Source of the DNA: Watersipora subatra
Taxonomy: Eukaryota; Bryozoa; Gymnolaemata; Cheilostomatida; Watersiporidae
Direction of reading: 5' to 3'
Assembly: GCF_963576615.1 (NCBI RefSeq)
Contig: NC_088711.1
Coordinates: forward strand, 21,856,182-21,920,181
Length of the DNA: 64,000 bases
Positions 7,701-28,270 of the stretch are shown in pieces. Below the pieces are notes generated by a model, which saw nothing but the letters and a program-made list of their open reading frames with translations, ran no database searches and was not told where the DNA came from. Positions within the stretch are counted from its first letter, which is position 1. The number at the start of each line of letters is the position of its first letter. Position numbers and translations under genes: made by a program.

Positions 7701-10700
7701 GCCAACTATAGCAAACATGATAAATTATAACCACAATAAACCTATAATATTACTTACCAAAACATCCTTGGTTTTCAGTTTCTGTACTAGTAAGCGGCAC
7801 AAGTCTGCATTTTGAGCAGTAAACTAATTCAAATGTGTTTTTAATAACATATTTCAAATAATTATATTTAGATAGATGAGACATTTTGAGACATGAGACA
7901 TAGATGAGACATAGATGAGCTTCATTTTGATATACAATAGGTAGAACTTCAAAGCAATGGCTAGCAACTACGGCAACATATTTATGGAAATTAGCCACAA
8001 TTCTAAGGTGGTCCATTATTTTTCACATTATTGTCTGTTTGAAAATTGTTCAATCTAATGCTCCTTACACCGTTTGTAATTGTTTGAACTATTAGGTTGA
8101 AAAAGATGTTTACTGGCCTCCAACTACAAACTTGAGTTTTAGTAAGGTCATGGGACTCAAAGAAAAGATCAACCAAATGCACAGATGTGTTCAATAAAGA
8201 AAACTGCAAATCTGTTCACCAAGCATGCAAACCTACTTTATGTATCTCTATAAAATGTCTCGTGTACTGTATGTAGTATAGCGTATCACATCTTCTCTAC
8301 ACGGGGAGTAAAACTGCACTTAACTTACTATTCTAGAAGTAATACTAAATGAAAAGCTAAAAAACTCACCAAGCAGAGTGGTAGGGATACGGGCATCATC
8401 TCCCCTTCTTCTCCTTCGACTGATTGATCCCACGCCATAGCATCCCATTTAGTGTCAGAATTATAAGGCCAGAAGGAATCACTAAGGAAATAATTATTGT
8501 GGAGCTTACAAGAAGAGAGATCTTTTAGAGTTACAACTTTATGCCGTACCATTTTATGTCAAACCATTTTATGTCAAACCATTTTATGTCAAACAATTTT
8601 ATATCAAACCATTTTATGTCAAACCATTTATTTGATTTCATTGGCTAACTGTTGCCTTTTTTGTTTTATGATTTTTGTATGGCATAATTTGAAAAACATT
8701 TCTGTTTAAAATGAAATTATTGTCAATAATGTAATACTTACTATGTATATTATACGATGAAAAAATTATATATAGCATATTTATTATATGATATATATTT
8801 ATCATATAATATATATATTATATAATAATATAATACTGTCTGTAGCATGAGTATTTTGCTCCCTTACTTCATTTTGGTTGAGCTCTCTATGAGAAGTGTG
8901 ACAATATTGTCCTTAGTGCAATGAGCTAAGGACAATATTGTCACAAAAATATTGGCCTTAAGAGTACAACAACATAGTTCACATTGTTACGCTCATCACC
9001 TTTGTGATTTGAGCAGTCTTGTGTCACACATTGACTTTCTTAAAGTCTGTGAGACAACTTAGTTGTTTCATGGCAGAAAGTCAATGCTAAATGACAATAG
9101 GAGTTATCTCCCGTGCCTACTCTGAGCTGCGCTAATGAGGCGTAAATAGCTGAAACAGTGCTGCCTGTGGCATGATATATGATGTATAGAATGCTGTATT
9201 TCATATATAGTCGACATATTATATTTAATATATATATATATATATATATATTGGTGATTATATATATATATATATATTGGTGATTATATATATAATCCCT
9301 GATATGATCATCAACAGCTAATTATGTAGTGTAGACAGGCAGCTTGCTATTCACAGACTCACCTGTCTGCAACATTGTGAACATGTAGTAGCAAGTATAT
9401 TGCATCATGGAGACACGTCAAGATTAATGCAACTTTCTTACAAAACCGAAACTGATGCAAACAATTCACGTTAGTAAAATGAATACGAGAGATACACCAA
9501 CTTCTTGTTTTTAAATCAAACAGGAGGAAAAAAGGAGCTGTTCTAAATAAGACATCATTTGAAAGCAATGTAAAGCTTTTATTTAGAATTATAAATATAG
9601 GAGACAATTGCAATTATGTCTCAGCAACAGAGCAACAAATGAGTTGCGTGAAAACATTATGCCAGCAAAGTGAGAGAATGGTTGGATCTACGTATCAACT
9701 ATGTAGCCTTAGCTTCTAAAACACGTTAAATAAAGATCTAGGTGAAAATTGATAATAATAGTGTTTCAACTTTCTCTGTTGCACCCACCAGTGCATTCAA
9801 ATGATGTGAGTGCTTTACTAAAAACTGAGGTCTTCAACACAATTAAACAAAACTGAGCAGGAGTTGTGTGCACATCTTACCTGTGTCTGTTAAAAGATAA
9901 ACATTAATAATGTTTGGCATCAAAGCTTGTGTTGAAATGAATTAATACCTAAACATACATTGCTACCTGATAATTCTTTAAAATTCTCTGAGTGTGTACA
10001 TGTCTTTTATGTGACAGAAGGTATTTACCAGCATGAACCGTGGGAATTGAAAGGTGAGCATACATCTACACCTCAGACCAGTAGGTGTCTATATAAACTA
10101 AATACATGTATTTTAATACGATACAAAAAATTGGGAAAAGTATTTAAAGAAAAAAGTAAACCTTCAAAAACAAAGCTTTTTACAGAATGACCTAGATGAA
10201 AGGAGATGTGTAACCAGCAAACTCAAAGCATTTTATGAAATTTGTTAAGGAACAGACAACTTCACAAGTGTAATTTTCTTGTGAAACGTGTATAGCAGTT
10301 AGGCATGAGCAGAAACTGAGATTAATTAAAAACACAACAAGCTGTCATTGTAATCATGTAGTCGACTGCCGACTCGACTAACTAACACATGCTCCAGGAT
10401 ATGTACTATGCCTGTGACAGGTTCTGGTACCCACAGCTTTTAGAAAATGATGTTTAGGATAGCCTAATATTCGTGAAGAAAAAAAATCTTGTAATTACAA
10501 GTGCATTGCCATTCCATCCGACTTCTAGGATGCAGAACTGCTAAAGAACTTTAGTCAATTGTGTGCCGCTGTCTATCGTAGGAGCAGCGTTATACCACCA
10601 CAACATTACAATAGCTCACAAGTCAGCAGAGAACTACAGTAGAAGCTTCTATGACACAAATTCTAAATGAAGTAAAAAATTTATGCAGATTTTGCTTCGT

Positions 10701-13700
10701 ACTACATAAAAAATTTCATATAACGTAATGTGATAAGTCGGAGCAACTTCTCAAATTAAATTTGAACGGTAACATATCTCACCGCACTTGTGAGAGAAAA
10801 AAAGTACGTATAGTATTATATATATTATGTATACAACTTCCATGATATTTTAGTTCATCGTAATATATTATCAGATGTGTCGACAAAATAGAGAATAAGT
10901 AGCCGCGCAATTATTAACAAATATTTAAAGGCGAACGATTGGTGCAGGTGTTACAGTGTCGGTCTATCAATTTAAATGCCACGAGTTGGAGTATTGTCGA
11001 AAGATATCTTTCATTTTAACCTTGACTTCTGGATATATATAAACAATGAACGGGTAGACACCGCTCTTTTAATAGTAAAAATATACTTTTGGTTTGCTTT
11101 ATTGAGGACATGTAAAATATTTATTATTAGCTTTACTTTGCAGAATAAACTTTGCTGTCTAAAAAAATTAAACAGATCATCATAAACGGGCGTCGAAGAT
11201 GTGCGCTCCCCATCGACTCATTGTAAAATTACTGAAAGCATAGTCTATAAAATCAGATAAATAACCAAATAAATTGATCATAAAAAAGAAAAGTTGTATG
11301 TATACTAATAATATTTCAGTTACGGTACAGCCAACAAATTAAAAATTTAGATCTAATTTTTCCTTTTTGTATGGCTAAAAGGGTGAGTTTAGGACGATCT
11401 TGGAACAGATCAGGCAATTTACATGAATTTCACTGTTTGTATAACGTAAAATCCCTATAATGTAAACATGTATGGAATGGATTATTCACCTTATAAGAGC
11501 ATCTACTGTTGCTGAATAGTTATTTTTACCACCTATTATATATTTCAAAAAAAATTTATCATGCAAAATCTCTCATGTTCAACTGCGGAAGACTTAAAAA
11601 ATCCCAATTTTCAAATTTTCATTATACAGGGGTACATCTAGTATCTAGTAAATACTCAGCAATTAAAATGCATGATCATCAGCATCTCAACATTGCACCC
11701 AAAGAAATAAACTGGCATTGTCATGAATCCAAGCATAAAGCAGTGAGTTATGCATAAAGTTGTTAAACTATTGTGTCAGTCCTCCTCTAAAGAGAATTTA
11801 CTAATGTTTAAATATATATAAATTGGAAACTTTCAGATTTGTAAGCAATTGGTAATTGTAGGTAATTGTAGGTAATTAATCATTGGGCAACAGAGAATTG
11901 ACAACTTCATGTAAAATAGATGTGAATAGAATAGAAATGATACAGCGACAACATATAGCAATAAAAACATACGCATTCTTCAGCTTGAAACGAAGACGAC
12001 TTGAATCTTTGACAGCCTGACATTCATGTGCGAAGTCTCCTTCATAAGCCGGTAAAGTCCCTTCCTGTAGAGCGCTCAATACTTCCTCAAACTTGTTTAA
12101 GTTGTACGCCTGTAATGGCAGTGAACACATTGAATTCTCAAACTGCTCAGTAACTCATGCCAGCATATCTAACAAGTCGTACACAAACACAGCTGTTCAA
12201 TTGCTACAAAACTTTTCTCAATCTTTTCAAAACTTGTTAATTCTTCGTTGTTAGTAACATTAGAAGAAAAATACACTAGCCATGGGAGCCATATAGCAGA
12301 CAGTAATCGAAGCGTGTGTAACACATATGTGGGCTACAAGCAATGCCTATACTCTTTCAGCATAGTTGTTGATGGTATGACCTTGATGATACGACCATGA
12401 CGGTAAGACTTTGTGGCCAACATTTAAACTCATGTAAACCAATTACAATTAGCCATATTCATGTGAACTCCTTTCACGTTACAACACGTTACATACTGGC
12501 AAAATCGAGATAAAAGAACCATAAATGATAGACTTCATTGTCTAAAATGCAGTTAACGCTAAACCAAACAATGAGATGGTATAAAGAAGGGAACATTGAC
12601 AGTATTTGCATATGTAGCCATTTGAGACTTGGCAAGATGCCCATTATTGAACAATATTGATACTCCTGCAACTAGTGTAAGCTTGTAACAAGCTTCAAAT
12701 AAATCTGTAGCAAGTAGAAAAGCACAGGAAATGATTACCCGAGCGATTTGCTTTGGACTAAATGTTGTCATGACACCTTCTGCGAAATTCGCAGAGGGAT
12801 CGGCAACAGAAAGAGCGAACCATGTGTCAGAACCTTCTGGCTTGTACTGGTACACTCCCAGATCTACAAAAAACTCAATTGATAATATGAAATGTTCAAA
12901 ATTATGGAAAGGAGAACTCAGCAGTGCCATAATTTTTTTCAACGCTGTTATAGGTCTACTATCCAGCTACTGGGTTCATCCACTATTTTCGCATTTTATG
13001 GTAAATGAAAAGTAGCACATTCACCGCTAACAACTTTGATATATGACATGACTAGTTGACTACACATCTACTCACCACTATCACTAGCTACTAGTATACA
13101 TGACACGACTAACTGACTACACATCTACTCACCACTATTACTAGCTACTAGTATCTATGATATGACTAGTTGACTACACATCTACTCACCACTATTACTA
13201 GCTACTAGTATATATGACATGACTAGTTGACTACACATCTACTCACGACTATCACTAGCTACTATTATATATGACATGACTAGTTGACTACACATCTACT
13301 CAACACTATCACTAGCTACTAGTATATATGACACAACTAGTTGACTACACATCTACTCATCACTATCACTAGCTACTAGTATATATGACACAACTAGTTG
13401 ACTACACATCTACTCATTACTATCACTAGCTACTAGTACATATGACATGACCAGTTGACCACACAAGCAACCTCGCCACTATCACTCACCGCTGTCTGCA
13501 GCACGCAGGAAGCACAGACCGAGCTTTCCTCCATCAGGGTCAGTAAAGAACTTAGACACTATTTCAGATATCAAGATTCCCTCATTGGTATCCAAGTCGA
13601 GAGGCACCAGTAGTTGAGTCCACATTTTCCGAGGAGAAAATTGTAGATCGTCGAGACCTGACTCGGGCAGTTTTGGAGCGTCGTTTACATTGATGATCTA

Positions 13701-16700
13701 AAGGTGAGTAGGTGAATCATATATGATCGATCGCACAAGGTCCACATATAGCTACATGTACGATAGACAGACTATATAACAAGACTACGCCATTCTATTA
13801 GAAATACATGTATATCACAATCAATTTTGATATAATGATATTGGGAGTTTTTTCCTCTACCTTATGAGTTTTAAGTTATAGCAGCATGCTGCCAGAGATT
13901 GGAGATATCACAAAGAAATCAAAAATATTGTGACATTCCTTAGACGATGTTGACTCAGCAGAGATACGTATTAGATCATATACGATCAAAATAAATCCAT
14001 CTACTGGCAAAAATGCTTGTGAATATATCTACCTCTATGTTAAAGGTGACATTTTCTTTAGACAAATCTTTTGCCTTGGCTGGAAGAGAGCCGCTCCAAG
14101 CAAACAAAGCCAAAGAGAAGGTTCCGGTGAAATCTTTTTTGGGTTCATAGTTGATAATAGGCAGTCCATAACCTCCTGATTTTAAACTTATCGCTGTATC
14201 CTTCTTATCTGAAATATGACACCAGTGGTTATGAGTATACTGAGACGCTGTCTCGTCATGACTAGGAGCAAACAACTCTCAAAGAAAAGCTGTACAATTT
14301 GACTCCTATTTGAAAATAGTCAAATGTGTAAGACCAAGTTCTTTCTATTACACATTGCCGATCTCTAAAGTATATCAGAGCAAATTTTGGCCCTTTTAAG
14401 TATAGCATAGCAAATAGCCAGCTCTCTGGGATATATCATAGCAAATAGCAGCTCTCTGAGGTATAACATAGCAAATACTAGCTCTCTGAGGTATAGCATA
14501 GCAAATATCAGGTCCCAGAGGTAAATCTTTGCAAAGAGCAGCTCTCTGAAAGTATTGCACAGTGAATAGCCAAGCAGCTATACCACAGTGGTTTTAGCGA
14601 AGAGTGCCGCTATATGTCGGTAGGCTAATCAATGTCTGTAATAATAGACATCTATAATTATACATGTAAATTTAGATTTTAGTATTTTTATCATAATAAT
14701 AAAAACATCAACATATTAAAGCCACAACAATAGCGCACTAAAATAAATAACATAAATAATATCCATCCCATAAAATGATACCACCATAGAATCTATACCA
14801 TAGCAATGATATCAACATAACAATAATAACATCATAAGAAAAATAATTGATAACAAAAATAACAAAAGAAAGTTATTACACACTAGCGATAATAACATAA
14901 ATATAAGCTGAAGAGCAGTGCACAAGGCTTGGCAAGCAATCCGCACTTCTCCACTCACCGAGTGTAGAAGAATTAGACAGCAGACTGATTGTTCCAAACT
15001 CTTTTTGTACGTTGCGCAGTTTAACATGAACTCCCAGGGATCCTGCTACATTTTTGCGCAAATCTTCCATACGCTTCTTGTAGCCCTCATATATCTCGTT
15101 TCCCTTGTCACTCATCTGTACACCAATCATATCTTCTGTAGACATCTTGACTGCAATATTAGTTCATTTACCTCAATTAAAAGGACTGCAACGCAATAGC
15201 TAGATAGTTTTTACTTTGTGAAGCTTTACAATATTTGTGGAGTTGTCTATTGACAGTTTGAGGGCCCAAAAGAAGAGAATAACTCCACAAAAAGGAATTC
15301 TTAAAACGAACGATATCATAAATGCCATTTAAATTTCACACTTTGCAGTGTCCGGGTATGATTTAAGAATGAGTTGACTGACACACTAACAAATTTACCT
15401 TGAGCTAACAGAAAAGCACCACTCAAATTCAGGAGAACTTACGCAGAAACTGTTTCAAACGTAAAGCCGAACCAGTCACATCTTCAATGAAAATGTTTCG
15501 AATTCAAAAAATAAACAATATACAGAAGGTATATTATGTCGATACCTCGTGTGAGAGACATGGGAGAGCTGATGTTAACAGGAAGTGTAAAATTGACCAC
15601 TAGTTCATCCTCTCGTAGCACAATATTAGTGCTGTAGTTGGCTAAGAGTGAGATGTTTGGCGGGAGGTTGGCAGGGAGAATTATGACCGCTAGGGTGTAG
15701 TTCTTATTTCCTGTAAGGCAATGCAACAATGAGGTCAAGGCCAACTAGCTTTGTTAGCAATACCAACAAGCAGCTGTCACATCAGTTCATACAGTCCTTG
15801 ACCTTCATACAGTCAATCAACCTCCAATATAGTTTTACGTGTTTTCTTTATCACGTGTCCCACAATTCCAAACTGCTCTGCGGCGGTTCGTGCACAGAGT
15901 AATCCCAACCATATAACATTTTGTTCTTGACTTTTAGTTCATTTTATTTAGTGAAAGGGTATTCTCATACTCTTGGCTATGATTTGAAAGTTTACTCACT
16001 ATATATATTCATATACCACATTTTCTGGACTGTAATCAATCTAGAGTATTATTTGCATTTTTTGAGGAAATCTACTTGATAAAATTGAACACCAAGAACA
16101 GACATGTCATTTAAAATTTAATCGACGAACAATTTAATAATATAATGAAGGCGACAACAGACTAAATAACTATTATGCTAGATGACTATTCTAATAAGTA
16201 TAGCTTAAATAACATGCTAAGAAATTCACCAAAACCATCTGTCAGTCTAGAAAACCTATAATTAACATTCAATGAAATCTTAACAGCGTTACTTTTCAAG
16301 TACACTGATATCGGAGGTAGGAGAATCGGGCACCCTAAGGGTGTTTGAGTCCATGATTGACATTTATGTTTTCTTTGTTTCAATAAGAGTAGCCTCCACC
16401 TTTTGTCAGCTCCTTATAAGTTTCTCACCAACTCCAACTTTTTTTTTTACTGCTCACCGATTATATTTATATATTGATGATTATTTATATAATCCCTTAT
16501 ATATATAGATTTTCTTCCATAGCTAGTATATATCATACTAGTATATATCACAACTAGTATATATCATATGAGTTATAAAAAATAGTTGTACTTATCTAGT
16601 TGTAGCTCTGTTATCTTAGTATTACTGCACTTTACTGTATTAGCCTATAATACAGTAGAACCTTAAATTATATTATAGATATATTGAGTCAATAATTTCA

Positions 16701-19700
16701 CGTATAAGTCGCCCCGGAGTATAAAGCGCACCCCGGACCAGAACGATGAAAAAACCGCAACTTTTAGTCCGAAAAATACAGTGCATTAATACGGGAAATA
16801 TATTTTGAGAAATTTTATGCCATAGTTACCTTCAACGTCATTAACTATGACCTTGGTGAGCCCATGAAAACTGATGTCAGAAGGCATAGAGGCTATAGGG
16901 GTACCAATATCCAACACTTCACCTTCAGTAATAGCTGTCCACTTTCTAATCACTTCGGAGCCACCTAAAATATAACGTAGACCTCATCAAACATCACTAT
17001 CATTCCCACTGAAGATTACCATTGCTATAGGTATGATTACCATTGCTGTAGGTAAGATTACATTGCTGTAGGTATGATTACCATTGCTGTAGGTAAGATT
17101 ACCATTGATGTAGGTAAGATTACCATTGCTGTAGGTATGATTACCATTGCTGTAGGTATGATTACCCTTGCTGTAGAGATTACCCTTGCTGTAGGTATGA
17201 TAACCATTGCTGTAGGTAAGATTACCCTTGCTGTAGAGATTACCCTTGCTGTAGGTATGATAACCATTGCTGTAGGTAAAATTACCATTGCTGTAGGTAA
17301 GATAACCATTGCTGTAGGTAAGATTACCATTGATGTAGGTAATATTACATTGCTGTAGGTATGATTACTGTTGCTGTAGGTATGATAACCATTGCTGTAG
17401 GTATGATTACCATTGCTGTAGGTATGATTACCATTGCTGTAGGTAAGATTACCATTGCTGTAGGTAAGATTACATTGCTGTAGGTATGATAACCATTGCT
17501 GTAGGTAAGATTACTATTGCTGTAGGTAAGATTACCATTGCTGTAGGTAAGATTACCATTGCTGTAGATAAGATAACCATTGCTGTAGGTAAGATTACCA
17601 TTGCTGTAGGTAAGATTACCATTGCTGTAGGTAAAATTACCATTGCTGTAGGTAAGATAACCATTGCTGTAGGTAAAATTACCATTGCTGTAGGTAAGAT
17701 AACCATTGCTGTAGGTAAGATTACCATTGCTGTAGGTATGGTAATTGGTATTTGAGCAGAAAAAATCATAAAGTTAGCTGAAGCCATCACAACTGCTCAC
17801 CAACCAAGATGTTCATACAATTCGAAAAAAGAAGCTAGGCTAAACTTAGCTTCTCCGACTACCTTTTATGACAAAAAATGAATTAGCACTTTTTATATTG
17901 GGACTTTGGTGACCATTCCAAAGTCGAACCACATTCTTACCATCAGCATCTTGTATCATCTCTTCACTCTCTACCTTCTTCCAACTGCAGCCTGCGGAAG
18001 CTGTGCTCACATAGAATTTGAGCCTGTTTGGAGCATCATTTCCAAATATGCCCTGACCACCAGTCATCCTAATAGGCTCAGGATCAAGACTCGCTAGGTA
18101 GGCTGTCACTTTGTATGGTTCCTTTTCATAACCTTCCTCTCCCGGATCAGGCAGGACTGAAGAAAAGAGAGACCAAGGCTATAGAAAACATAAAAAAATG
18201 TTATTCTAAGTTGTAAGATCAAACTGTTGCAAGTACAAACCCCCAAGATTTGCGTATGGTTTGACAGAGCATTCTGAGATTTGTATCGTAACTCTATAAC
18301 ATACCTAACATATTAAAAAAAATTTAGTACATGTCCTTCTAATAAACATAATTCACACGCTCCTCCTTTCAAAAGGTATCATTGAGCTCTGATTAGCACA
18401 GATAAAGTGCAGTGACATTTTGTTACTTGCTAAAAAGCTCATAACCTGAAGATAACATTGGTATGCAAGATGTATAGCCTAAGGACCAGTGTACAGTGGA
18501 ACCTCACTTACAAAAGACTCTACATGTGATATACATGTATAAAAGTTACAACACGTTTTTTGGTAAAAATTATGTTATGACTTGTTTTTGACACATTTGT
18601 TCATTTTATATTATGGCCCCTTTGCATCCCATGGGTACGATGTACAACATGTCTCACTCGATTTCATTTCCTAACAAAATCTATAGCCAAAGGGTTTTGT
18701 TTTAATCGTTGTATAATTTGGAGTTATTATAAACCACATACATAAGAGGATAGCTATCTTTTCTAGAAACTTTAGTCATGTGTTTTCTTGTACTGCTTTT
18801 GTTTCGTTAGACTTTTAGTCGGTTTAGTTAGTTGTTTGTTTAGTTATGTGTTTTTTAGTTCGAGCTGAAGTGAATAAATCTCTCTACTTGTGTTCTTAGA
18901 ACATCTATTTTGCGCAAAACAAAACAAATAAAACAATACTACACCCACCTCCTCTAACAATACCACACCCACCTTCTCTAACAATACCACACCCACCTCC
19001 TCTAACAATACCACACCCACACCCTCTAACAATACCACACCCACCTCCTCTAACAATACCGCACCCACCTCCTCTGACCGCTCTAATATGATTTTAACGC
19101 CCGTTTGTAACTAGTTTTAATCAATGTACATGTGTTTATAATTTTATACAAATATTATGTCGGAGTTTTGCGAGGCTCGACATGGATTAGGAAAATAACA
19201 TGACACAATGCGTTTCTACTTACAATATTTTCTACTTACGAAACAGTTTCCAGCACGAATTAATTTTGTAAGAAGAGGTTCCACTATTTAAGACTATTAA
19301 AAATCGCAACATTAAATTTTGGCTAAAATTATACTACGTTGATCAAGAGATAAACCGCATAGAAAGTTGTGCCTTTATAAGACAGTAGAAACACAAAGAC
19401 GCACAAAGTGGCTCAAATTTTAATTTATTCCAAATGTAAATGAGTCATTAATCACTTACTGATTTCTGGAGAAACGCAAGACGAACCGCCACAAGAATTA
19501 GGACAGCACTTGTCATTTCCTTCACAGCCCTCCGAGTCACTCAAACACTCCTGTTCTATCGAACAGATTCCGACATCGGCAAGATCAGGGCATTCGCCGT
19601 AGTTATCAATGGTTCGACTGCAGCTAGGCGACACACAGGCGTCCCAACTGGTGCAGTAAACCTGAGCATAGACATCCAAGGTTAGCCAGCAACACAAATC

Positions 19701-22700
19701 TATACTATGCACACAATAGTCCATTGAAATAAGCAGGATTATCATATCAACCAAAGAGTTTCCTAATGGAATACTTGACTAGCCCATGGCCCTTTTCTAT
19801 TATCAGTTACCTGAATATGAAATGTTCTTTATATTGGAAACCTTTGGCAAAATATTATTTCCAGAAACTAGATTGAAGTCACATAGCTTTATTTTAGAGT
19901 GATTGTTCAATCTTTAACGATTTGTTAGTTAAAGAACGATTATCAGCTTCATTGTTAATTATATATATTTTACGTATTATATAGTATTCTATTTTTTATT
20001 AAATATCAACGTCATTTCAATACAATCATTGCGATACACTACACGCCCTTCCTGAACAGCATATCACTCTCAATGCCTCTAATGCAGCGGTCTCTTATTA
20101 AAATGATCGGCAATAGCAAGTTTATCATCAATTATCAGAGGGATGACATTACTAATAAACCTAAAGACTATTGAATCCTTTTTTAAATATTACAGTATTT
20201 TATAAAGCAATTTTATAACATTCTCAATATACTGACCAGCCCTTCACCACAGACGTTCTCATCAGTCTGAGAACCAAAGAAGCTATTAACTTTGTGCTCA
20301 AGCTCCCTGCTGATATCTTCCACTGTAAAAGAGTTGTGTGCCATATGTTTTAGTCATAGGATTACAAGCTAGACTTAAGTACAGTAATTGCCCAAATAAA
20401 AATAGATATGACTCCGGTACTATAAGCAAACAATCCTAATGACTTTAGCTAACCTTCTCAAGTACCGTAAAACTTTTATTTAAACCTCTAATAAAGCGCC
20501 ACTATAGGGAAAGGGTTAAAAAAATAGAGTGCCATGACGTTCACATAACGGTTTGATGATATATTTAAAAAATAAACAACTTATTAAATTAGGTTAAAGC
20601 ACAGGTAGCAAAAATTCAGCACAAGTTTAGTGGTTCTGATACACATGATCTCAGGCCATGCAGATAGTCATGGACACAGATAGATGATGTCATGTACAGC
20701 AGGGAGCATGCCAAAAACCTATGGCAGTATTATTATGATGCTGCCTCCATCATAATATGATATTACCTTATACGGGCTACAAATAAAAGCCTTACGTGTG
20801 GGTCCATAGTTGTCATAGTTGCCATAGTTTTCGTCCTCTTTACAATCGATCCTCACACACTGAAAACTGTAGAGGCAGAAGACCTAAAAGACAACTTATA
20901 TTTAACAAAACTCATAAATTACTAACTATATAAACCCTGTTTCAAGCCTGATAAGGCTCTGTGTGATATCACTATATTGTAGGAGGTTTGCTGCAAACAA
21001 AAACTTGTAGAAGTCACACATTTAGTAGTAAGAAAGATTACCTTGAGAGGAAAGCCTATGCAAAAGTATGGATAACATAGGAATAGATAACATTAGAAAA
21101 CACATCTATAGCTTGAAGAGCAAGAATACTTCAAAGTAAACACGCCTAACACCTCATTGGAATCCTGTTAAAAATTGAGACAACATAAAGTGTTTTACGA
21201 CAAAAACATAGGCTACTGATTTATCACATGAAGTCTGGACTGCTGTGACACCATCAGCAGTTATACCTCCATTAGGTGCACTGAGTTTAGAGTGCAACTC
21301 CCAACATTCCACTAAGAAAAACCTCCACAATAACAACAGATGATGCCGGAAGAGCCAAAAAAGAAAACACACAGTCACAACAGATACTCTGTACCATTCC
21401 AAGTGGACAAGCATCACGCTTGTCCATCTTTCTCCCCATAAGTCTGTTGACAGTTCTCTCAAGTTGAGTTCTGAGCCTGTGGCGAGGTACCCCGCTATCT
21501 TTAGCAGTTGACTTGCACTGCAGTCTGACGCACTTATGGGTCTCCACACAAAACGTCTGTTACCGGTATATACAACAAACGCCTTCAACTTATTCATTGA
21601 AATCAAAGCCTGTAATACCCAATTCAATAAAAGCACCAACATGTTCCATGACCGAATGAAGCAATGTTCTAACAGATCGTTTGATACTGTTAGTAGAGAA
21701 ACGCTCACACCTGATAAATAAGACACATTTGAAAAATGAAAATAAGCAGCACAACTACTTGACTGTGAGCAGAGATAGCAACAAGAACAGACGATTACAA
21801 CAAACGATTACAACAGGCGATTACAACAGACGATTACAACAGACAATTACAACAGACTACTACAACAGACGATTACAACAGACGATTATAACAGATGATA
21901 CAACAGACCATTACAACAGACGATTACAACAGACGATTACAACAGGCAATTACAACAGACGATTGCAACAGACGACCACAACAGACGATTATAATAGATG
22001 ACTACAAAGGACGATTACAACAGACGACTACAACAGACGATTACAACAGACGATTACAACAGACGACCACAACAGACGATTATAACAGATGATACAACAG
22101 ACCATTACAACAGACGATTACAACAGACGATTACAACAGACGATTACAACAGACGATTACAACAGACAACCACAACAGACGATTATAACAGATGACTAAA
22201 AAAGACGATTACAACAGACGACTACAACAGGCGATTGCAACAGACAATTACAACAGACGATTACAACAGATGACCACAACAGACGATTATAACAGATGAC
22301 CACAACAGATGATTACAACAGGCGATTACAACAGACGATTACAACAGACGATTACAACAGACGATTACAACAGACGATACAACAGACACTCTGTACCATT
22401 CCAAGTGGACAAGCATCACGCTTGTCCATCTTTCTCTCCATAAGTCTGTTGACAGTTCTCTCAAGTTGAGTTCTGAGCGTGTCGTGAGGTACCCCGCTAT
22501 CTTTAGCAGTTGACTTGCACTGCAGTCTGACGCACTTATGGGTCTCCACACAAAACGTCTGTTACCGGTATATACAACAAACGCCTTCAACTTATTCATT
22601 GAAATCAAAGCCTGTAATATCTATTTCAATAAAAGCACCAACATGTTCCATGACCGAATGAAGCAATGTTCTAACAGATCGTTTGATACTGTTAGTAGAG

Positions 22701-25700
22701 AAACGCTCACACCTGATAAATAAGACACATATGAAAAATGGCAATAAGCAGCACAACTACTTGACTGTGAGCAGAGATAGCAACAAGAACAGACGATTAC
22801 AACAGGCGATTACAACAGGCGATTACAACAGACAATTACAACAGACTACTACAACAGACGATTACAACAGACGATTATAACAGATGATACAACAGACCAT
22901 TACAACAGACCATTACAACAGACGATTACAACAGACGATTATAACAGACGACTACAACAGACAATTACAAAAGACGATTACAACAGACGATTACAACAGA
23001 CGATTATAACAGACGACTACAACAGACAATTAAAAAAGACGATTACAACAGACGATTACAACAGATGACTACAACAGACGATTACAACAGAGAATTACAA
23101 CAGACGATTACAACAGACGATTACAACAGACGATACAACAGACAAGCTGTACCATTCCACGGGGGCAAAAATCTTGACTCGCAGTTTTTTTAGTAATCAA
23201 TTTCTCAATAGTTTGCTGAAGAGTATCTTTCAAATTGTCACGAATCATGCTGCCATCTCCATCCTTCACACTATTGCAGTATGTCTTGACACATTGGTTG
23301 TTTTCCAGACAAAATGTCTGAAGCATACAGTGAAAGCCTTAGATTAATACAACTAGTTACTGCCCAGACAGACAAAATTTCTGAAGCATACAGTGAAAGA
23401 CTTAAATTAATAGTTTTGGTTATTGCTAGACAAAATGCTTGAAGCCTTAAATTCATACATCAGTTATCTAGACAGAATGTCTAAATCATACAGTGAAAAC
23501 TTTAAACCAGTCGCACATCGTATCACAACTACGTGCACTTGAATTTAGTAAACCTCAACATTGCCGTGATAATTTAAACAAAGGCTCTGCAAAGAATATT
23601 GTTATAGAAAGAGACATATTGGTCAAATTGGCAAAAGGCAAAAAGTTGTCATGACATACTATATTTCATTCAAGATGACAAACTAACATTATATAAATAC
23701 TCAGAAGAAGTAAACACACTAAATCATAGAGGCAGTTTTTTCTGAAGTACGGGGCAAAGACATACAGGGGGTTTAGCTATAGGAAATTATGAACTGTATG
23801 CCCTGCTGGTCAAATAAGATCTCAAGCAACAAACAGAGAACATTAAAACAAGATGAGCGAAACAGTAATCAATTATCAGACTACTGGGCCAACTAAATAG
23901 TGATAATTCAAAGCACCCTCAAATGGTCTCACCCAAGAGTTGTCTTACCATAAAAAATAGATTCTATTCATGCTTAGAGTTGAAACAAGAGTGAGAGTAC
24001 ATAGAAGGCTTTTGAAAGGCACAAGTTGACAACAGTGAATATACCATGCCAGCTGAACAAGGTTCCTTTTTCTGACTCCTTCTATACATTAAAGCAGCAA
24101 GTGTACGTTTTACATCTGCTTTCAAGGAGCGATACTCATGCGTACAGAGATCTTGGACGCAACGCGACGAGCTCATGCAAAAAGTCTGTGAAAGAAACGA
24201 TGCTAAATATAAATACAGGTGATTTGAAATAACAGTATATTGCTGGGTTGTCAAATGAATATCAATGAAACAGAAAAGAATCGATATGTTGATGCAACAC
24301 CAGAAAAAACTTTTCATAGACATAGATCAGTAGACAATTATTCGGCAAAAAGACATTGGCAATTCGCAAACCAGTATTGCTGTCAATGCAAAGCCTTAAG
24401 CGAATCAATCTTCAACTGTTATAGAATTGATGGAAAGATATAACGTAGAGCTGTACAAAGATTTGTTACTACAATCAGTCTGAATGAATAGAGCTGTCCA
24501 GAATTGAAGAGAAGACAACTTTAAAGACGAACGAAGAAACCCACAAGAGAATGGCAATAGATAACATCTTTCCAATCAAGTTGAGTACGTGCATGCAGAC
24601 TACCAAAAGACACGTCCAGATTTTGAGTACAAACAAAAGACAGCAGCACAACCAGCATGGAGGTTACTATACTCATAATCTGGTTCAGACAGATGAGAAC
24701 AGGTAGTGCTATACCATGTTGGTTGGACAGAGATCATCATAAGGCAAGTGCTTCAAATCTAGCGTGTGATCCACAGCTTTGCTAAGAATAGTAGGAGTAA
24801 TTTTGTAAGGGAGATCAACTGTTGTTTGTCTAGCCATGTCGCATACAGCGGGTATACACTTGCGTGCTTTAACGCAATAGATCTGTGGTGAACAGATATA
24901 AATTGTATGCGGTAAACAATGGGTTAAATTGTTGAGTTGTTTGATATAGCAGAAGAGTTTTGGAGGAACTATAACATAACAAGGAAGAGACCACAAGCTC
25001 CAACAGCTGTACAAGTGCGAATAAATAACACAAACTAGTTATAGTGTGGGAGTTGTCAGCTCAACCCATGTGATGTCATATAGAGCCACTACGAGCAAAT
25101 CTCTACATATCTTTGGTAACTAAGTTAACACTTCAGACTTGCTCAGCTAAATTTGTTCGAGGAAAAACAAAATTCAGTGTTTGCCATAATATGGCTGAAG
25201 CAGAACATGGTTGGCATGACAAAAGGTTAACAGTTGATAGAGATCATTTACCTGCACTTGACGCATCTATAAAAATGAGCCAATACCTCGATAGCAAACT
25301 AAGTTATCAAAACTGTGGAAGAACACGCAATGCAAGAAAGAGCTCAAGCTTGAACAGCAAACTGAGAAGAAAATCTTTCTTTCTTAAACATGTGAACATT
25401 ATGATAAATGTCAGCTGAACAGCAACGAGGAGACAATAAGCACCCCAAAAAAACTGTACCCTGTTCTCTGGACAGAATGTAGCTATTGCCCTCTCTCGCC
25501 TATTTAGCATGAGATTAGCAGCCTCTCCTAGTGCGGTGCGTATGGGGCTTGTTGCAGATTGCCCAGGATTTCTACACTTTACAGAAGTACACTTACTTGC
25601 TGATAAGCAGTATGCCTATAGCCAACATATTATTACTGTGTATAAGAATAGCTGCCATACGAAAGGTAAGAATAAAAGGTATTTTCATTGGTGTTAGACC

Positions 25701-28270
25701 TATCAGAATTTCATTCTTAGTCATTGGAAAAAAACACAGAAGTTGATGTCACAGAGAAGAGTAAAATATAGCCCTAAAACGCCACAACATAACCACTCCA
25801 AGAAGGGGCATTTTGTTTGTTTTAGGAAGACTTGCATGGTAAAAGACCAAAAAGAAGGGAAACACATTGGTTTGGCATATGCCACAGAGTGAAGAAGTGG
25901 GAACAATACAGGCACTGTTATACCAAATTATCTGGACAAAGTTATTAAAGTTCCTTATATCCAGCCGGTTTTTCACAAGCCTCCAAGATCAGGCTGACAA
26001 ACATTTGCACCCGCCCACTTCTTGTACCATTAAGCTTGCTGTAACAACAACTGATAGCTGGTGTTGGCCTCTGCATGATGTCTCTATATATAAATGACTG
26101 TCAACCTTTATTAGACTGTCGAGACATCATTACAGAGGTCCACATACAATGATTAATGTCTAACCAATCTCGACTGGTTACAGAGAAGCAGGACTATATG
26201 TTATCAATTTAAAGCTAAAACTACAAAGCCTTTATAAAAGGTCAATAACTCATAACAAGTCATTGTCACTATTGCGCTGTTAAGAAACAAAAGCTTGTCA
26301 GTATAATGACACTAACAAAGGTGGAAATGAAAGTGAAAACTTTTCCATTTCAATCTACCAGCGATGAAAAACCTTCAGTAAAGAATCAATGAGTAATATT
26401 GATCCACAAGGCTTGAAAAACACTTGGTCTGCGGTGTCGTGAGGCAACAAGAAATATTATGAAACAATCGAATGTAACCGAGGAGCGCCATTGTTCAAGG
26501 ACAATAGAAGTATGGTCTCCGCACGTTATTGATTTTTACTGCTAATAACCTGAGAGCTCATCCGATGGTGCAGGAGACCAACATTTGCCTGTTGCTCAGC
26601 TCTAGAAAACACTGAGTGTTTCTGCTAGTTAAAAATAATGCAAAACTATATGAGATGGCTTGATGAGCTGCTCACCATTCCCTTCGGACAATTGTTTGGT
26701 CGACCACCAACTACCATTTCATGCACAGCGTCCCTCAGCTCTGACCTCAGATCTGCAGCAAATATATGCATAGTTTTATTCACTAAGCATTGAATAGATA
26801 CCAGAGTAAGCGGCAGGATGGTAAACTGAATTCCAATAATAAAAAATAAAGTAATTTTGAGAAATTATAAATCTATATTAACCTCAGCGTCTGTCTTTTT
26901 GTTAAACCGTGTGTCCAGTTACAGCAATTAAAGTCTAGCAATGAAAAAACCGCACTGCACTAGATTTGATCTCGGGGCCTCCAGATCTAAAGGCAGCAAA
27001 CTTGATACTCACTCCTAAAGCACTTGCTTGGGATTAATAACTAGCACTGTTGATCATTACGCGTAACGATTAAACTGGCCCAAAACCCGGCTATAATTTT
27101 AGTACAGGTTTAGCTTTCCAGATAAGTTACTCAAATTTATTAGGTAATTATTTTATTATTCGTGCAATGCTGGGTATTCCGCTAGTCTAAATATAAATCT
27201 CACTGTTTGTTGTTTTTGTACACCGTATGTCCAGCTATGGCGATTAAATCTAGCAATGAAAAATTCGCATAGCAGAAAAGTTGATCTCAGAACCTCCCAT
27301 TCACAAGGTGACAAGCTAACCTATTAGGCTGCATGGGATACAATAGTTATATGAAGCAGATAGTCATCATTTGGGTTACAATACGCATAGTGACTCTGCA
27401 TTATGCGCAACGTCACTAAAGCTTGCTATCACAGTTTTTATTAATAAGTTTAGCAATACGTATACTAACTTAAACTAACCGATGGCAACTACATTACCTA
27501 CCACTGTTTATAAGCTGTTTTTAATACCCGTGCAACACCAAGCATTTGGCTAGTATAATATACAAGACAGTGCTGCATTCCATTTGTCCAGACCGATCAA
27601 CAAAGATGACATCAGATGTCACTATATATCGCTTGCTCTTATAGGATTTCCTTATTAAGGTTGAAACGCTTTCATGAGACGAAAAGGCTCAGTTGTAGTT
27701 GTCACAAGTTTTTCTTGAATTGGCTCATCTTGGTTTAATGCTAACGAGCAGGATTCAAAAAAGCATCATATTCATACAATGTATGTAATACCGACCGTAA
27801 GGAATGTACTGCACACAATAAGGTGTTCACTGTACTCAATACGGTGTGAACTGAGTACCATAAGGAATGTAGTGCATGCAGTATGATGCTTACTGTACTA
27901 AATATGATGTGTACTGAATACTATGAAGAATGTACTGCATACAATAATTTGTGCTGAATGCAATGTGCATGGAGTGCAGCAGAGACTGCACCGCAGGCAA
28001 AAAGGTGCAAGCTGAATGCAATCAGCTGTGTACTGTATATAGTGAACAACGTGCTGAATGCAATATATTGCATGTAGGACGCACAGTAGATTTGTATCGC
28101 TACCACGATGGAGAGAAATGAAACTAACCATGAAGAGTTAGTTCGTAGTCGTCGTAGTCGTACCCCTGGTCAGATACAGTCAAATAACGAGATGTGGTCG
28201 TCTCATAAAAGGCTGAGCAGCAACCAATTAGCATCAAGAGGGTTGCAATCCGATCTGTCCTCGGGGCCAT
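1542..28270 (-). CDS. Large modular secreted/receptor-type protein, 29 traced exons, 3' end off the window
   Basis: I traced 29 coding exons (listed separately) with AG/GT borders and fully consistent phases, 4,375 coding bases or about 1,458 residues. Order: signal peptide; 4-Cys modules with [FY]C-x5-C-x3-C at the start and C-x3-M or C-x3-L at the end (seven complete); a WAP four-disulfide core; a poorly recognised region; two Ig/cadherin-like stretches marked by VNDAP and DPDGG; a Cys-rich CGGDGSxC/CHGDSSSC region; IPT/TIG-like domains; then a segment reminiscent of the REJ region of polycystin-1-like proteins. Many N-x-S/T sites fit an extracellular protein. Transmembrane helices, if present, must lie beyond the left edge. 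The introns carry many minisatellites and MITEs. Seen: exons, phases, motifs. Known: WAP and IPT domains are extracellular. Inferred: a giant surface or matrix protein, possibly a polycystin-1/REJ relative. No gene name can be assigned. Confidence 0.85.
1802..1926 (-). CDS. Large secreted protein, exon 28 (end of IPT domain)
   Basis: Includes VIDSTTVHCIIPTSLRKQLD, giving the usual IPT ending (V-x-S-x-T-x-x-x-C-x-x-P), and ITLDVSFAINDPRFVFPEE. Acceptor CTTTTGCAG, donor GTAAGT, phase 2 out. Confidence 0.8.
2041..2160 (-). CDS. Large secreted protein, exon 27 (IPT domain)
   Basis: Includes VVMTGTGFVSTGDEVCFTNC and CRTADSVAVVEAK. VVMTGTGF is the IPT core strand. A 120-base symmetric phase-0 exon with acceptor CTATCCAG and donor GTAGGC. 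Confidence 0.8.
3413..3567. repeat. 31-bp minisatellite, about 5 copies
   Basis: Tandem units with the core CCACCTCTACCTGCAAACTA. They lie in the intron between exons 27 and 26 of the large gene. The continuous plus-strand reading frame through them is a by-product of the repeat. Confidence 0.85.
3846..3960 (-). CDS. Large secreted protein, exon 26 (IPT domain boundary)
   Basis: Includes VIDGSESTVTSAMFNVILPE then VTSLSPSTIEIGN. 'P.VTSLSPST...G' is the classic start of an IPT/TIG domain. Acceptor CACTTACAG, donor GTAAGG, phase 0 out. Confidence 0.8.
4085..4166. repeat. 16-bp minisatellite, 5 copies
   Basis: Units of TCTGGCGAACTTACAG in tandem, with one T variant in the second copy, inside the intron between exons 26 and 25. 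Confidence 0.9.
4566..4791 (-). CDS. Large secreted protein, exon 25 (IPT/TIG-like)
   Basis: Includes VPNVGGFITIYGADLLDTVD, which fits the G-G-x-x-x-x-I-x-G strand-turn of IPT/TIG domains, then a predicted beta-rich stretch and GTYSVKC. Acceptor CCTATTTAG, donor GTAAGT, phase 1 in, phase 2 out. Confidence 0.8.
5194..5372 (-). CDS. Large secreted protein, exon 24 (CHGDSSSC repeat)
   Basis: Includes DACDVCHGDSSSCLDCENVP and DMCGSCLFTDDASFNK. This is the second clear DxCxxCxGDxSxCxDCxxxPNG unit. Acceptor TTTTTGCAG. I end the exon at AAAG|GTGGTT because only this phase joins exon 25 in frame and keeps the next Cys. Confidence 0.8.
5575..6362. mobile_element. Tigger/pogo-type MITE, 788 bp, TA target
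   Basis: Starts TA-CAGTCACATCTCGACATA and ends with the inverted form (GAGGTATGACTG-TA). TA dinucleotides flank both ends, as expected for the pogo/mariner superfamily. No transposase frame is present. The right end strongly resembles the end of the decayed Tigger at 47.97 kb, so both probably belong to the same family. It lies in the intron between exons 24 and 23. Confidence 0.75.
6560..6776 (-). CDS. Large secreted protein, exon 23 (Cys-rich)
   Basis: Includes NQCGNCVLGNTGINDPDHGR, DCKGGC and VYCDGVWRSGAKIDS, with seven cysteines in 72 residues. It lies between two CGxC/GDxSxC exons and continues that domain. Acceptor CTTCCAG, donor GTAAGC, phase 1 in, phase 2 out. Confidence 0.8.
7359..7527 (-). 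CDS. Large secreted protein, exon 22 (CGGDGSxC repeat)
   Basis: Includes YVYISGDAMRLGCND and DICNDCGGDGSKCVDCNGDQ. The C..CGGDGS.C.DC.G pattern is a short Cys-rich calcium-loop-like repeat seen in many eukaryotic surface proteins. Acceptor ATACGCAG, donor GTAAGA, phase 1 out. Confidence 0.85.
8370..8481 (-). CDS. Large secreted protein, exon 21
   Basis: Includes DSFWPYNSDTKWDAMAWDQS; the AWDQS end closes the Ig-like fold started in exon 18. It joins exon 20 across a 3.5-kb intron in matching phase 2. Acceptor TTTCCTTAG, donor GTGAGT, phase 0 out. Confidence 0.8.
8548..8632. repeat. 15-bp minisatellite, about 6 copies
   Basis: Tandem ACCATTTTATGTCAA units with few changes, just 5' (minus-strand sense) of exon 21. 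Confidence 0.85.
8897..8945. repeat. Perfect 20-bp inverted repeat (hairpin)
   Basis: Left arm 8897-8916 (TGTGACAATATTGTCCTTAG) and right arm 8926-8945 are exact reverse complements around a 9-base loop. A second, weaker inverted pair (CATTGACTTTCT / AGAAAGTCAATG) lies at about 9,028-9,090. It could be the core of a foldback element; I see no terminal target duplication. Confidence 0.8.
9217..9295. repeat. TA dinucleotide microsatellite
   Basis: Long (TA)n runs interrupted by TTGGTGAT in an intron of the large gene. A similar AT block lies at about 8,750-8,830. Confidence 0.8.
11973..12109 (-). CDS. Large secreted protein, exon 20
   Basis: Includes AYNLNKFEEVLSALQEGTLP and SSRLRFKLKN. The LRFKLKNA end corresponds to the LRFVPNA strand of VCBS-like domains. 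Acceptor CATTACAG, donor GTATGT, phase 2 out. Confidence 0.8.
12739..12863 (-). CDS. Large secreted protein, exon 19
   Basis: Includes DLGVYQYKPEGSDTWFALSV. Together with exon 18 this gives the order DPDGG...AADS.LGVYQY......W, the usual middle of the VCBS-like fold. Acceptor TTTTGTAG, donor GTAATC, phase 0 out. Confidence 0.8.
13040..13475. repeat. 57-bp minisatellite, about 7.5 copies
   Basis: Units with core CTAGTTGACTACACATCTAC repeat every 57 bases, ending about 15 bases before exon 18. The array could affect use of the exon 18 donor. Confidence 0.9.
13490..13697 (-). CDS. Large secreted protein, exon 18 (VNDAP / DPDGG motifs)
   Basis: Starts IINVNDAPKLPESGLDDLQF and later has FFTDPDGGKLGLCFLRAADS. 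VNDAP linkers and DPDGG loops are typical of tandem VCBS/cadherin-like domains, best known from large bacterial adhesins and some metazoan surface proteins. Acceptor CCTTTAG, donor GTGAGT. A 57-bp minisatellite begins just 3' of it. Confidence 0.85.
14033..14208 (-). CDS. Large secreted protein, exon 17 (end of an Ig/cadherin-like repeat)
   Basis: Includes LPIINYEPKKDFTGTFSLAL and ends NVTFNIE. The pattern YEP.KDF.GTF....A....NVTF is that of the C-terminal half of VCBS/cadherin-like Ig folds. The typical VNDAP linker follows in the next exon. Phase 1 in, phase 0 out. Confidence 0.8.
14371..14555. repeat. 30-bp minisatellite, about 6 diverged copies
   Basis: Core ATAGCAAATA..AGCTCTCTGAG repeated with substitutions, in the intron between exons 17 and 16. 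Confidence 0.75.
14959..15150 (-). CDS. Large secreted protein, exon 16
   Basis: Includes YEGYKKRMEDLRKNVAGSLG and VHVKLRNVQKEFGTISLLSN. This is the most helical, charged part of the protein. Acceptor ATATTGCAG, donor GTGAGT, phase 1 both sides. Confidence 0.8.
15443..15481 (-). CDS. Large secreted protein, exon 15 (39-base microexon)
   Basis: Encodes DVTGSALRLKQFL between an AG acceptor (TTCATTGAAG) and a strong GTAAGT donor. It keeps the phase-1 reading frame. The case for it is the splice sites plus phase agreement, because the exon is too short to judge by coding content. Confidence 0.6.
15546..15710 (-). CDS. Large secreted protein, exon 14
   Basis: Includes NKNYTLAVIILPANLPPNIS and ELVVNFTLPVNISSPMSL, with several N-x-S/T glycosylation sites. 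The sequence fits a beta-sandwich edge. Acceptor CCTTACAG, donor GTATCG, phase 1 both sides. Confidence 0.8.
16010..16792. mobile_element. Diverged MITE with 'TTTTCGGACT'-type terminal repeats
   Basis: The left end (ACCACATTTTCTGGACTGTA) and right end (CTTTTAGTCCGAAAAATACAG) are inverted relatives, and the right part holds the CCCCGGAGTATAAAGCGCAC motif typical of this widespread MITE type. It is a diverged cousin of the element at 43,620-44,040. The borders are approximate. Confidence 0.5.
16830..16964 (-). CDS. Large secreted protein, exon 13
   Basis: Includes SEVIRKWTAITEGEVLDIGT and a predicted strand LTKVIVNDVE. Acceptor ATATTTTAG, donor GTAACT, phase 1 both sides. It is separated from exon 12 by an intron almost filled by a 21-bp minisatellite. 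Confidence 0.8.
17015..17742. repeat. 21-bp minisatellite, about 35 copies
   Basis: Units of ATTACCATTGCTGTAGGTA plus two bases, filling most of the intron between exons 13 and 12. Because 21 is a multiple of three, long open frames appear on both strands (7-residue repeats such as MVILPTA on the minus strand). They have no start context, splice sites or flanking coding and are not genes. Confidence 0.95.
17941..18156 (-). CDS. Large secreted protein, exon 12
   Basis: Includes YKVTAYLASLDPEPIRMTGG and NRLKFYVSTASAGCSWKKVE. The alternating polar/apolar pattern suggests beta structure, but I do not recognise the domain. Acceptor CTTCTTCAG, donor GTAAGA, phase 1 both sides. Confidence 0.8.
18494..19286. 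mobile_element. MITE with CAGTGGAACCTC terminal repeats, TA-flanked on the left
   Basis: The left end TA-CAGTGGAACCTCACTTACA is matched by an inverted right end (TAAGAAGAGGTTCCACTA). The type is common for mariner/pogo non-autonomous elements. It carries a 24-bp minisatellite (18,941-19,076) inside and has no transposase frame. It lies in the intron between exons 12 and 11. Confidence 0.6.
18941..19076. repeat. 24-bp minisatellite, about 5.5 copies
   Basis: Tandem AATACCACACCCACCTCCTC units followed by TAAC, inside the MITE at 18,494-19,286. Confidence 0.9.
19460..19661 (-). CDS. Large secreted protein, exon 11 (module start plus WAP domain)
   Basis: Begins VYCTSWDACVSPSC, the module signature, then runs into a WAP four-disulfide core: CPDLADVGICSIEQEC, then KCCPNSCGGSSC. 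The CP..G.C....C and KCC.N.CG spacing is diagnostic of WAP domains, which are often protease inhibitors or matrix modules. Acceptor GCTCAG, donor GTAAGT, phase 1 out. Confidence 0.85.
20237..20322 (-). CDS. Large secreted protein, exon 10 (second part of the split module)
   Basis: Encodes LEDISRELEHKVNSFFGSQT then VCGEGL, completing the module begun in exon 9. Acceptor CTTTTACAG, donor GTCAGT; phase 1 in, phase 0 out. Confidence 0.75.
20465..20560. mobile_element. Terminal fragment of a pogo-type element
   Basis: TACCGTAAAACTTTTATTTA and the AAAGCGCCACTATAGGGAAA block resemble the terminal region at 41,713-41,815, which adjoins a pogo transposase fragment. The other end was not located. Confidence 0.35.
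20796..20883 (-). CDS. Large secreted protein, exon 9 (first part of a split 4-Cys module)
   Basis: Encodes VFCLYSFQCVRIDC followed by an Asp/Asn/Tyr/Gly-rich stretch (EDENYGNYDNYG). Phase 0 in, phase 1 out, donor GTAAGG. This module, unlike the others, is divided over two exons. Confidence 0.8.
21372..21795. repeat. Segmental duplication, copy A (exon 8 plus flank)
   Basis: Matches 22,374-22,797 at an offset of 1,002 bases. I count 4 differences in the 162-base exon and about 6 in the 236 bases of intron on its acceptor side. Both copies are followed by the 13-bp satellite. Confidence 0.9.
21395..21556 (-). CDS. Large secreted protein, exon 8 (4-Cys module, duplicated copy)
   Basis: A 162-base symmetric phase-0 exon with acceptor GGTAACAG and donor GTACAG. 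It begins TFCVETHKCVRLQC and ends CPLGM. It is the near-identical partner of exon 7, offset by 1,002 bases. Longer open frames that run through it into flanking intron are not real. Confidence 0.85.
21786..22386. repeat. 13-bp satellite (GATTACAACAGAC), long array
   Basis: Dozens of GATTACAACAGAC-like units with variants (GATTATAACAGAT, GACTACAACAGAC) between exons 8 and 7. Several overlapping open frames rich in Arg-Leu-Gln-Gln-Thr-Ile result from it and are not coding. Confidence 0.95.
22374..22797. repeat. Segmental duplication, copy B (exon 7 plus flank)
   Basis: The partner of copy A, with a complete exon, identical splice sites and the same intron flank. Confidence 0.9.
22397..22558 (-). 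CDS. Large secreted protein, exon 7 (4-Cys module, duplicated copy)
   Basis: A 162-base symmetric phase-0 exon coding 54 residues. It begins TFCVETHKCVRLQC and ends CPLGM. It differs from exon 8 by four bases, all changing amino acids (HDT here against RHR, and E against G). Confidence 0.85.
22788..23146. repeat. 13-bp satellite, second array
   Basis: Same GATTACAACAGAC units as the first array. It reaches to within about 10 bases of the exon 6 donor. Confidence 0.95.
23153..23317 (-). CDS. Large secreted protein, exon 6 (4-Cys module)
   Basis: A 165-base symmetric phase-0 exon coding 55 residues. It begins TFCLENNQCVKTYC and ends FCPRGM. Acceptor GCTTCAG, donor GTACAG. The 13-bp satellite lies directly on its 3' side. 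Confidence 0.85.
24045..24185 (-). CDS. Large secreted protein, exon 5 (4-Cys module)
   Basis: A 141-base symmetric phase-0 exon coding 47 residues, the shortest module. It begins TFCMSSSRCVQDLC and ends PCSAGM. Acceptor TTTCACAG, donor GTATAT. Confidence 0.8.
24715..24882 (-). CDS. Large secreted protein, exon 4 (4-Cys module)
   Basis: A 168-base symmetric phase-0 exon coding 56 residues. It begins IYCVKARKCIPAVC and ends LCPTNM. Acceptor CACCACAG; donor GTATAG is weak but lies at the same module boundary as in the neighbouring exons. Confidence 0.8.
25460..25615 (-). CDS. Large secreted protein, exon 3 (4-Cys module)
   Basis: A 156-base symmetric phase-0 exon. It begins AYCLSASKCTSVKC and ends FCPENR, giving four cysteines in 52 residues. 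It differs from the other copies in ending with Asn-Arg instead of x-Met/Leu. Confidence 0.8.
26676..26752 (-). CDS. Large secreted protein, exon 2
   Basis: Encodes DLRSELRDAVHEMVVGGRPN followed by NCPKGM, which is the C-terminal half of the 4-Cys module seen in the following exons. Acceptor TGCTGCAG, donor GTGAGC; phase 1 in, phase 0 out. Confidence 0.75.
26872..27185. mobile_element. Helitron-like non-autonomous unit 1
   Basis: Begins A|TC at 26872, ends CTAG at 27182-27185 and is directly followed by unit 2. On the minus strand it carries a tRNA-like segment whose box-B-like part reads GAGATCAAATC. Helitrons begin TC, end CTRR and insert between A and T. Confidence 0.45.
27186..27553. mobile_element. 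Helitron-like non-autonomous unit 2
   Basis: Begins TCTAAATATAAATCTCACTG immediately after unit 1, ends GGCTAG before a T. A CCAA/TTGG inverted pair lies just before the end. It contains the same antisense tRNA-like segment. Confidence 0.5.
27780..28085. repeat. Imperfect tandem repeats around TACTGCATACAATA
   Basis: Diverged units of roughly 30-60 bases (GTACTGCATACAATAAGGTG, GTGTACTGAATAC variants), lying just 3' of the first coding exon of the large gene. Open frames here follow from the repeats. Confidence 0.6.
28129..28270 (-). CDS. Large secreted protein, exon 1 (start and signal peptide)
   Basis: Reading starts at the ATG at 28270-28268. The N terminus MAPRTDRIATLLMLIGCCSA has basic residues, a hydrophobic core and small residues suited to signal-peptidase cleavage. 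A Tyr/Asp-rich stretch (QGYDYDDYE) follows. The exon ends in phase 1 at a GTTAGT donor. An AG acceptor lies six bases before the ATG, so a 5' UTR intron is likely. Confidence 0.8.

Follow-up and report, generated by a model that had tools for sequence, protein, structure and literature searches.

A four-cysteine repeat array whose units span introns in a predicted REJ-type receptor gene of the bryozoan Watersipora subatra

On the minus strand of the 64,000-nucleotide stretch of Watersipora subatra DNA analyzed here (the window), predicted exons encode an array of eight complete four-cysteine units, each interrupted by an intron at one common point, with no partial modules in the predicted product. 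The array probably makes up the distal end of the extracellular region of an REJ-family (polycystin-1/receptor for egg jelly) receptor, likely a single-pass protein, in which eight linker-plus-cluster units carry a WAP domain as a cap. Our best reading is that the array is an undescribed, length-adjustable ectodomain arm, whose ligand and function we infer. What the analysis establishes at the level of sequence is the units, their spacing, their splice phases, the duplication of one exon, and, downstream of the array and also on the minus strand, an REJ domain.

Register of the repeat unit

A sequence-only reading of the window had described a module encoded by a single exon, starting with x[FY]-C-x5-C-x3-C, ending with C-x3-M or similar, and having a middle predicted to be helical and charged. 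Its exon inventory holds: there are six minus-strand array exons of 141 to 168 bases with phase 0-0 and GT-AG borders, a seventh copy split by a phase-1 intron between 20883-20796 (0-1) and 20322-20237 (1-0), a module end in the translation of exon 2 (26752-26676), and a module start fused to a WAP domain in exon 11 (19661-19460) (Table 1). The WAP domain matched PF00095 with an E value of 4.9e-6 and 27.2 bits, which passes the Pfam cut-off of 20.8, and its eight cysteines are present in the translated exon. The motif itself needed revision. The start spacing in the translation is [FY]-C-x5-C-x4-C in all eight starts, and the end motif stands in six of eight copies, the M position being occupied by R in the exon at 25460 and by L in the exon at 20237.

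When the translation is read across the splice junctions, all eight units follow the pattern C-x6-C-x5-C-x4-C, or CPxGM/x[FY]Cx5C[VI]x3C with the slash marking the intron. Cysteines fall at positions 0, 7, 13, and 18 of each junction-spanning unit, and the spliced reading contains no insertion or deletion. All 32 cysteines (four columns in eight units) are kept, with their codons alternating between TGT and TGC. Every cluster is cut by its phase-0 intron at the identical position, after CPxGM and ahead of x[FY]C. The linkers between the clusters differ in length, and the units range from 40 to 58 residues. Since the cysteine spacing is rigid over the splice junction in every unit, whereas the exon-internal part is variable, we conclude that the unit straddles the intron, and the proposal of one exon per module falls. 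The unpaired end in exon 2 and the unpaired start before the WAP domain are then two halves that bring the count to exactly eight. Each unit is ordered with its linker first, and the last complete cluster directly precedes the WAP domain.

The helical middle proposed by the earlier reading is weakly supported. AlphaFold2, run on one exon with the six window exons as the alignment, placed a helix at residues 25 to 45 with low confidence (mean pLDDT, 64.7; pTM, 0.29), in a model that covers the out-of-register exon and is uninformative on the spliced cluster; the amphipathicity of the linker helices was clearly above that of shuffles in none of eight hand-chosen segments.

These features suggest how the array might be built. 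In each unit a helix-prone linker leads into a rigid four-cysteine cluster of 19 residues, and the WAP domain caps the array. Each cluster would close two disulfides internally, and the array would form an extended, disulfide-stapled arm. Because a phase-0 intron interrupts every cluster at the same point (CPxGM/x[FY]C), gain, loss, or skipping of a 0-0 exon should restore a whole cluster. Duplication or skipping of any whole 0-0 exon would bring compatible halves together and rebuild a complete cluster, and array length could rise or fall without partial units arising. Such a gene design would be economical, in that introns within rather than between conserved units should make whole-exon gain, loss, or skipping always yield whole units. 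It also cautions that symmetric exons need not equal modules.

Table 1. Predicted exons of the array gene and the minisatellites adjoining exons 6 and 7, in window coordinates
Feature	Position	Strand	Phase	Content
Exon 1	28129..28270	-	0-1	Start codon, N-terminus signal-peptide-like by eye, then acidic/tyrosine-rich part
Exon 2	26676..26752	-		Linker, then cluster 1 first half (CPKGM)
Exon 3	25460..25615	-	0-0	156 bases; cluster 1 second half, linker, cluster 2 first half
Exon 4	24715..24882	-	0-0	168 bases; cluster 2 second half, linker, cluster 3 first half
Exon 5	24045..24185	-	0-0	141 bases; cluster 3 second half, linker, cluster 4 first half
Exon 6	23153..23317	-	0-0	165 bases; cluster 4 second half, linker, cluster 5 first half
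Exon 7	22397..22558	-	0-0	162 bases; cluster 5 second half, linker, cluster 6 first half
Exon 8	21395..21556	-	0-0	162 bases; cluster 6 second half, linker, cluster 7 first half
Exon 9	20796..20883	-	0-1	Cluster 7 second half, beginning of last linker
Exon 10	20237..20322	-	1-0	Remainder of last linker, cluster 8 first half
Exon 11	19460..19661	-	0-1	Cluster 8 second half, then WAP four-disulfide-core domain
Exons 12-19	11973..18156	-		Extracellular region; nothing in Pfam at E ≤ 1, only a cadherin-like look by eye
Exons 20-28	1542..8481	-		Cys-rich CGGD-type segment (by eye), TIG-like region
13-bp minisatellite	22788..23143			27.5 copies; starts at tenth intron base after exon 6
13-bp minisatellite	21786..22387			46.5 copies; starts at tenth intron base after exon 7

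Homology of the units and growth of the array

Similarity among the predicted array segments exceeds chance. In leave-one-out HMM tests, from which the near-identical copies in exons 7 and 8 were always removed together, all seven exon segments scored above 2000 shuffles each. The same held for all eight splice-spanning units, each set against 2000 full shuffles and as many cysteine-fixed ones, and the first unit (exons 2 and 3) and the last (exons 10 and 11) likewise outscored every shuffle when left out. A six-frame scan of the window with HMMs of the six 0-0 exons recovered each left-out exon (6/6; E = 1.3e-10 to 0.0064), and the full exon HMM placed eight open reading frames (ORFs) above the HMMER inclusion threshold, every one of them from the array. 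As half-units in the exon HMM scan of the window, exon 2 reached only an E value of 0.79 and exon 11 was absent at E ≤ 10; both half-units score once joined to their neighboring exons.

Exons 7 and 8 are identical at 158 of 162 bases, and the introns upstream of them at 242 of 250. The introns just 3' of the two exons, compared over 150 bases each, gave 93 matches, 38 mismatches, and 38 gap columns. Since these downstream introns do not match, the duplication ends shortly past the exon 8 donor. Judged by these comparisons, exon 8 is a recent tandem duplicate of exon 7 and the array grew lately by exon duplication, although misassembly of this repeat-rich stretch may be the cause instead. We also considered positive selection on the pair and set it aside, since the four differences, all replacements (dS = 0), are too few to carry meaning.

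The earlier reading proposed that symmetric exons let the array expand by exon shuffling. Growth by whole exons is borne out by the exon 7/8 duplication. Copies spread into other genes were looked for and not found: when the host's own genome (784 Mb, 239 contigs) was searched with the array protein, all 10 matches at E ≤ 10 lay at the array locus, a search that strongly diverged copies could escape. At the sequence level, the growth mechanism demonstrated is tandem duplication inside one gene.

The introns of the array gene carry further minisatellites at 17012-17738 (21-base unit), 13039-13486 (57-base unit), and 18932-19075 (24-base unit). Both copies of the 1-kb duplication hold, in the intron preceding exon 7 or 8, a minus-strand ORF (22592-22756 and 21590-21754) that has several cysteines and ends in a helix-like stretch. 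We do not claim these ORFs as the remains of a module, since 176 and 40 of 3000 shuffles, respectively, scored at least as high against the module HMM.

The predicted host gene

The host gene model extends past the left edge of the window on the minus strand, and ~57 kb to the left was added for gene modeling. The model comprises 52 exons and 2,690 residues and runs to a stop codon. Exons 1 to 28 were placed by hand; their phases match, and together they encode 1478 residues uninterrupted by a stop. The last 24 exons were placed by a simple dynamic program for which few exons served as training data. Exon penalties of 14 and 16 yielded an identical chain, whereas at a lower penalty the program built another chain, rich in tiny exons and indicative of over-prediction. 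The model leaves out candidate exons at 7804-7758 and near 4980 because of phase misfit. The firm parts of the predicted model are the chain of exons 1 to 19 and the presence of the REJ domain; any one of the last 24 exons could be in error, and every exon join is a prediction.

The domain order in the model is a signal peptide (by eye), the array, the WAP domain, a borderline TIG domain, the REJ domain, a weakly scoring GPS-like motif, and a single putative membrane helix. The elements from the REJ domain through the tail are encoded left of the window, on the minus strand like the array. The REJ match (PF02010; cut-off, 25 bits) reached an E value of 7.6e-44 and 150.5 bits on ORF pieces chosen by eye and an E value of 2.6e-43 and 148.7 bits on the gene model, where it covers profile positions 35 to 420 of 452. 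The TIG domain scored 23.3 bits (cut-off, 20.9) in an earlier chain that included one later-dropped exon and 20.3 bits in the final model. The GPS match, at about G000:C4:21834980-21835101, is weak and below its cut-off of 22.5 (PF01825, 16.2 bits, E = 0.016, positions 2 to 44 of 45). The GPS cleavage triad is usually H-L-S/T; the host protein shows S-T-G there by eye, which makes cleavage doubtful, and autoproteolysis at this motif may have been lost.

Near the protein end, a single long hydrophobic segment is followed by a short tail and the stop codon (by eye), which suggests a single-pass protein; the model thus has, by eye, one such segment rather than the 11 transmembrane (TM) segments of the polycystin type. 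PLAT was not among the Pfam matches of the host model at E ≤ 1. A SEA-like stretch is visible by eye between the GPS-like motif and the apparent membrane helix, and an RKKR run with the look of a furin site (by eye) lies between the REJ domain and the GPS-like motif, at ~G000:C4:21838857-21838930 on the minus strand. The window also holds an ARF-like small GTPase exon (45000-45299, plus strand; PF00025, E = 1.6e-15) and two mobile-element pieces, an integrase core (40254-40574, minus strand; PF00665, E = 4.3e-12) and a DDE transposase (46608-46865, plus strand; PF03184, E = 7e-12).

Relatives, alternative readings, and known systems

The sequence-only reading had not recognized the module as a named family, and our searches of Pfam, NCBIfam, and PDB, by sequence and by profile, likewise returned no convincing match. 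The spliced array matched seven Pfam families at E ≤ 10, of which WAP alone passes its cut-off; the next best, NLE (E = 0.0038), scored 18.1 bits against a cut-off of 23.4 over 23 residues, with no stretch passing singly. Searched one at a time at E ≤ 1, the eight units gave only NLE, in one unit (E = 0.2), and they had no match in NCBIfam. The PDB sequence search returned one chain (E = 0.1), and the PDB profile searches returned two at E ≤ 10, namely, 8etq (k-cTRP5), by its name a designed repeat protein, and a kinetochore NDC80 homologue (E = 0.51). The 8etq match (E = 4.4e-4 to 4.6e-4) adds up five stretches of 5 bits each, located in the linker helix.

Within the host genome, a 689-residue downstream query hit 12 places at E ≤ 1, all at the array gene locus, and an exon 12 query matched only itself. 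Five REJ matches lie at other loci, the array gene's own split REJ exons not being among them. No array was found in the ~3-kb loci of all five or in the 50 kb upstream of the C2 locus (best E = 0.61), and the 20-kb stretches preceding both C9 loci were likewise free of it (best E = 0.64); for the two C1 loci, coverage was ~3 kb. The 54 WAP matches genome-wide include one in the array gene, and no array was found beside other WAP domains in nine stretches of ~1.1 to 1.3 kb, on the WAP strand, that cover 10 of the 54 (best E = 0.33). One WAP locus, G000:C9:18121131-18122381, holds nine WAP matches at ~141-base steps in a single open frame of 435 residues, and WAP places are densely clustered at C4:54.55-55.95 Mb. 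At the level of titles and abstract openings, the literature matches listed contain no account of such a four-cysteine array. By "undescribed" we therefore mean not convincingly matched in Pfam, NCBIfam, or PDB and not found in the literature searched. Lineage-restricted small cysteine-rich repeats are common in animal surface proteins.

Three other explanations bear on these data. The units could descend, with strong divergence, from a small disulfide-rich module that is already known, rather than being a new domain family, which we regard as unlikely, if still worth serious attention. Small cysteine-rich domains drift past the reach of HMMs, and the stretches CPxGxx[FY]...C and C-[VI]-x3-C broadly resemble such modules, candidate parents being LDL-receptor class A, TIL, and peritrophin-type chitin binding. 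None of these three, however, is among the seven Pfam families matched by the spliced array or turned up in the single-unit searches, which gave one family, and the PDB profile searches gave the two chains named above. Since HMMER filters discard most weak matches, this exclusion of known modules is not strong. It is less probable that the exon is itself the folding unit, with the three start cysteines pairing with the end cysteine across the helix and the partial copies at the array ends being degenerate. Exon and segment do coincide in six copies, every 0-0 exon holds four cysteines, and exons 7 and 8 are duplicates. Nonetheless, the spacing holds constant over the junction and varies within the exon, and on this ground we rejected the exon-as-module register, which would also leave odd cysteine numbers at the ends (one in exon 2, three before the WAP domain), where the shifted register leaves no partial unit.

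Less probable again is that two neighboring genes have been joined, with the array forming part of a secreted WAP protein and the REJ receptor being separate. The long introns, exon joins predicted from sequence alone, and derivation of the 3' part of the chain from a simple program would all allow this; against it, exons 1 to 28 are phase consistent and stop free, the model continues into REJ exons on the same strand, and no second start was noticed in an unsystematic look. 

Most safely put, the array is a predicted extracellular repeat arm, stapled by disulfides, that forms the distal end of a receptor of the REJ family. Such an arm might bind a ligand or set the reach of the receptor, as in gamete or epithelial-surface recognition. 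A bolder proposal, which we hold to be a long shot, is that the units are an undescribed disulfide-stapled repeat family forming a length-variable recognition arm. Given the shared intron position within the clusters, alternative splicing and copy-number change, helped by the minisatellites by the exon 6 and 7 donors, would produce many arm lengths with no unit broken, and the arm would perhaps serve as a fast-evolving gamete or self-recognition surface. Length variation of the receptor arm is directly testable by RNA sequencing and population sequencing.

Compared with known systems, the domain after cluster 8 passes the WAP cut-off (PF00095), whereas the array units have four cysteines and no match to the WAP profile. 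The REJ skeletal matrix protein of Acropora digitifera is, like the host protein, an REJ-domain membrane protein of a marine invertebrate; unlike it, the coral protein is described as multi-pass and with WSC, PKD, REJ, GPS, and PLAT domains, and the passages on it mention no such array (PMC4890752). A further likeness is to the sea urchin SpREJ proteins and the PKD1 family, with which the host protein shares an REJ domain and perhaps a GPS motif before the apparent membrane helix (PMC1934368, in part). According to the same partial account, SpREJ modules comprise C-type lectin, EGF, SUEL, PKD, WSC, and serine-rich regions; that excerpt names no four-cysteine array combined with WAP and TIG-like regions, and the host model differs further in having no PLAT match (PMC1934368). 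SpREJ1, 8, and 9 are described there as single-TM REJ proteins, and REJ N-terminal modules as varied (PMC1934368); the host protein resembles these three in its one TM segment (by eye) and the family in its large extracellular N-terminus of varied modules. Given the varied N-terminal modules of sea urchin REJ proteins and the single TM segment of SpREJ1, 8, and 9, a new arm on an REJ/single-TM core fits the family.
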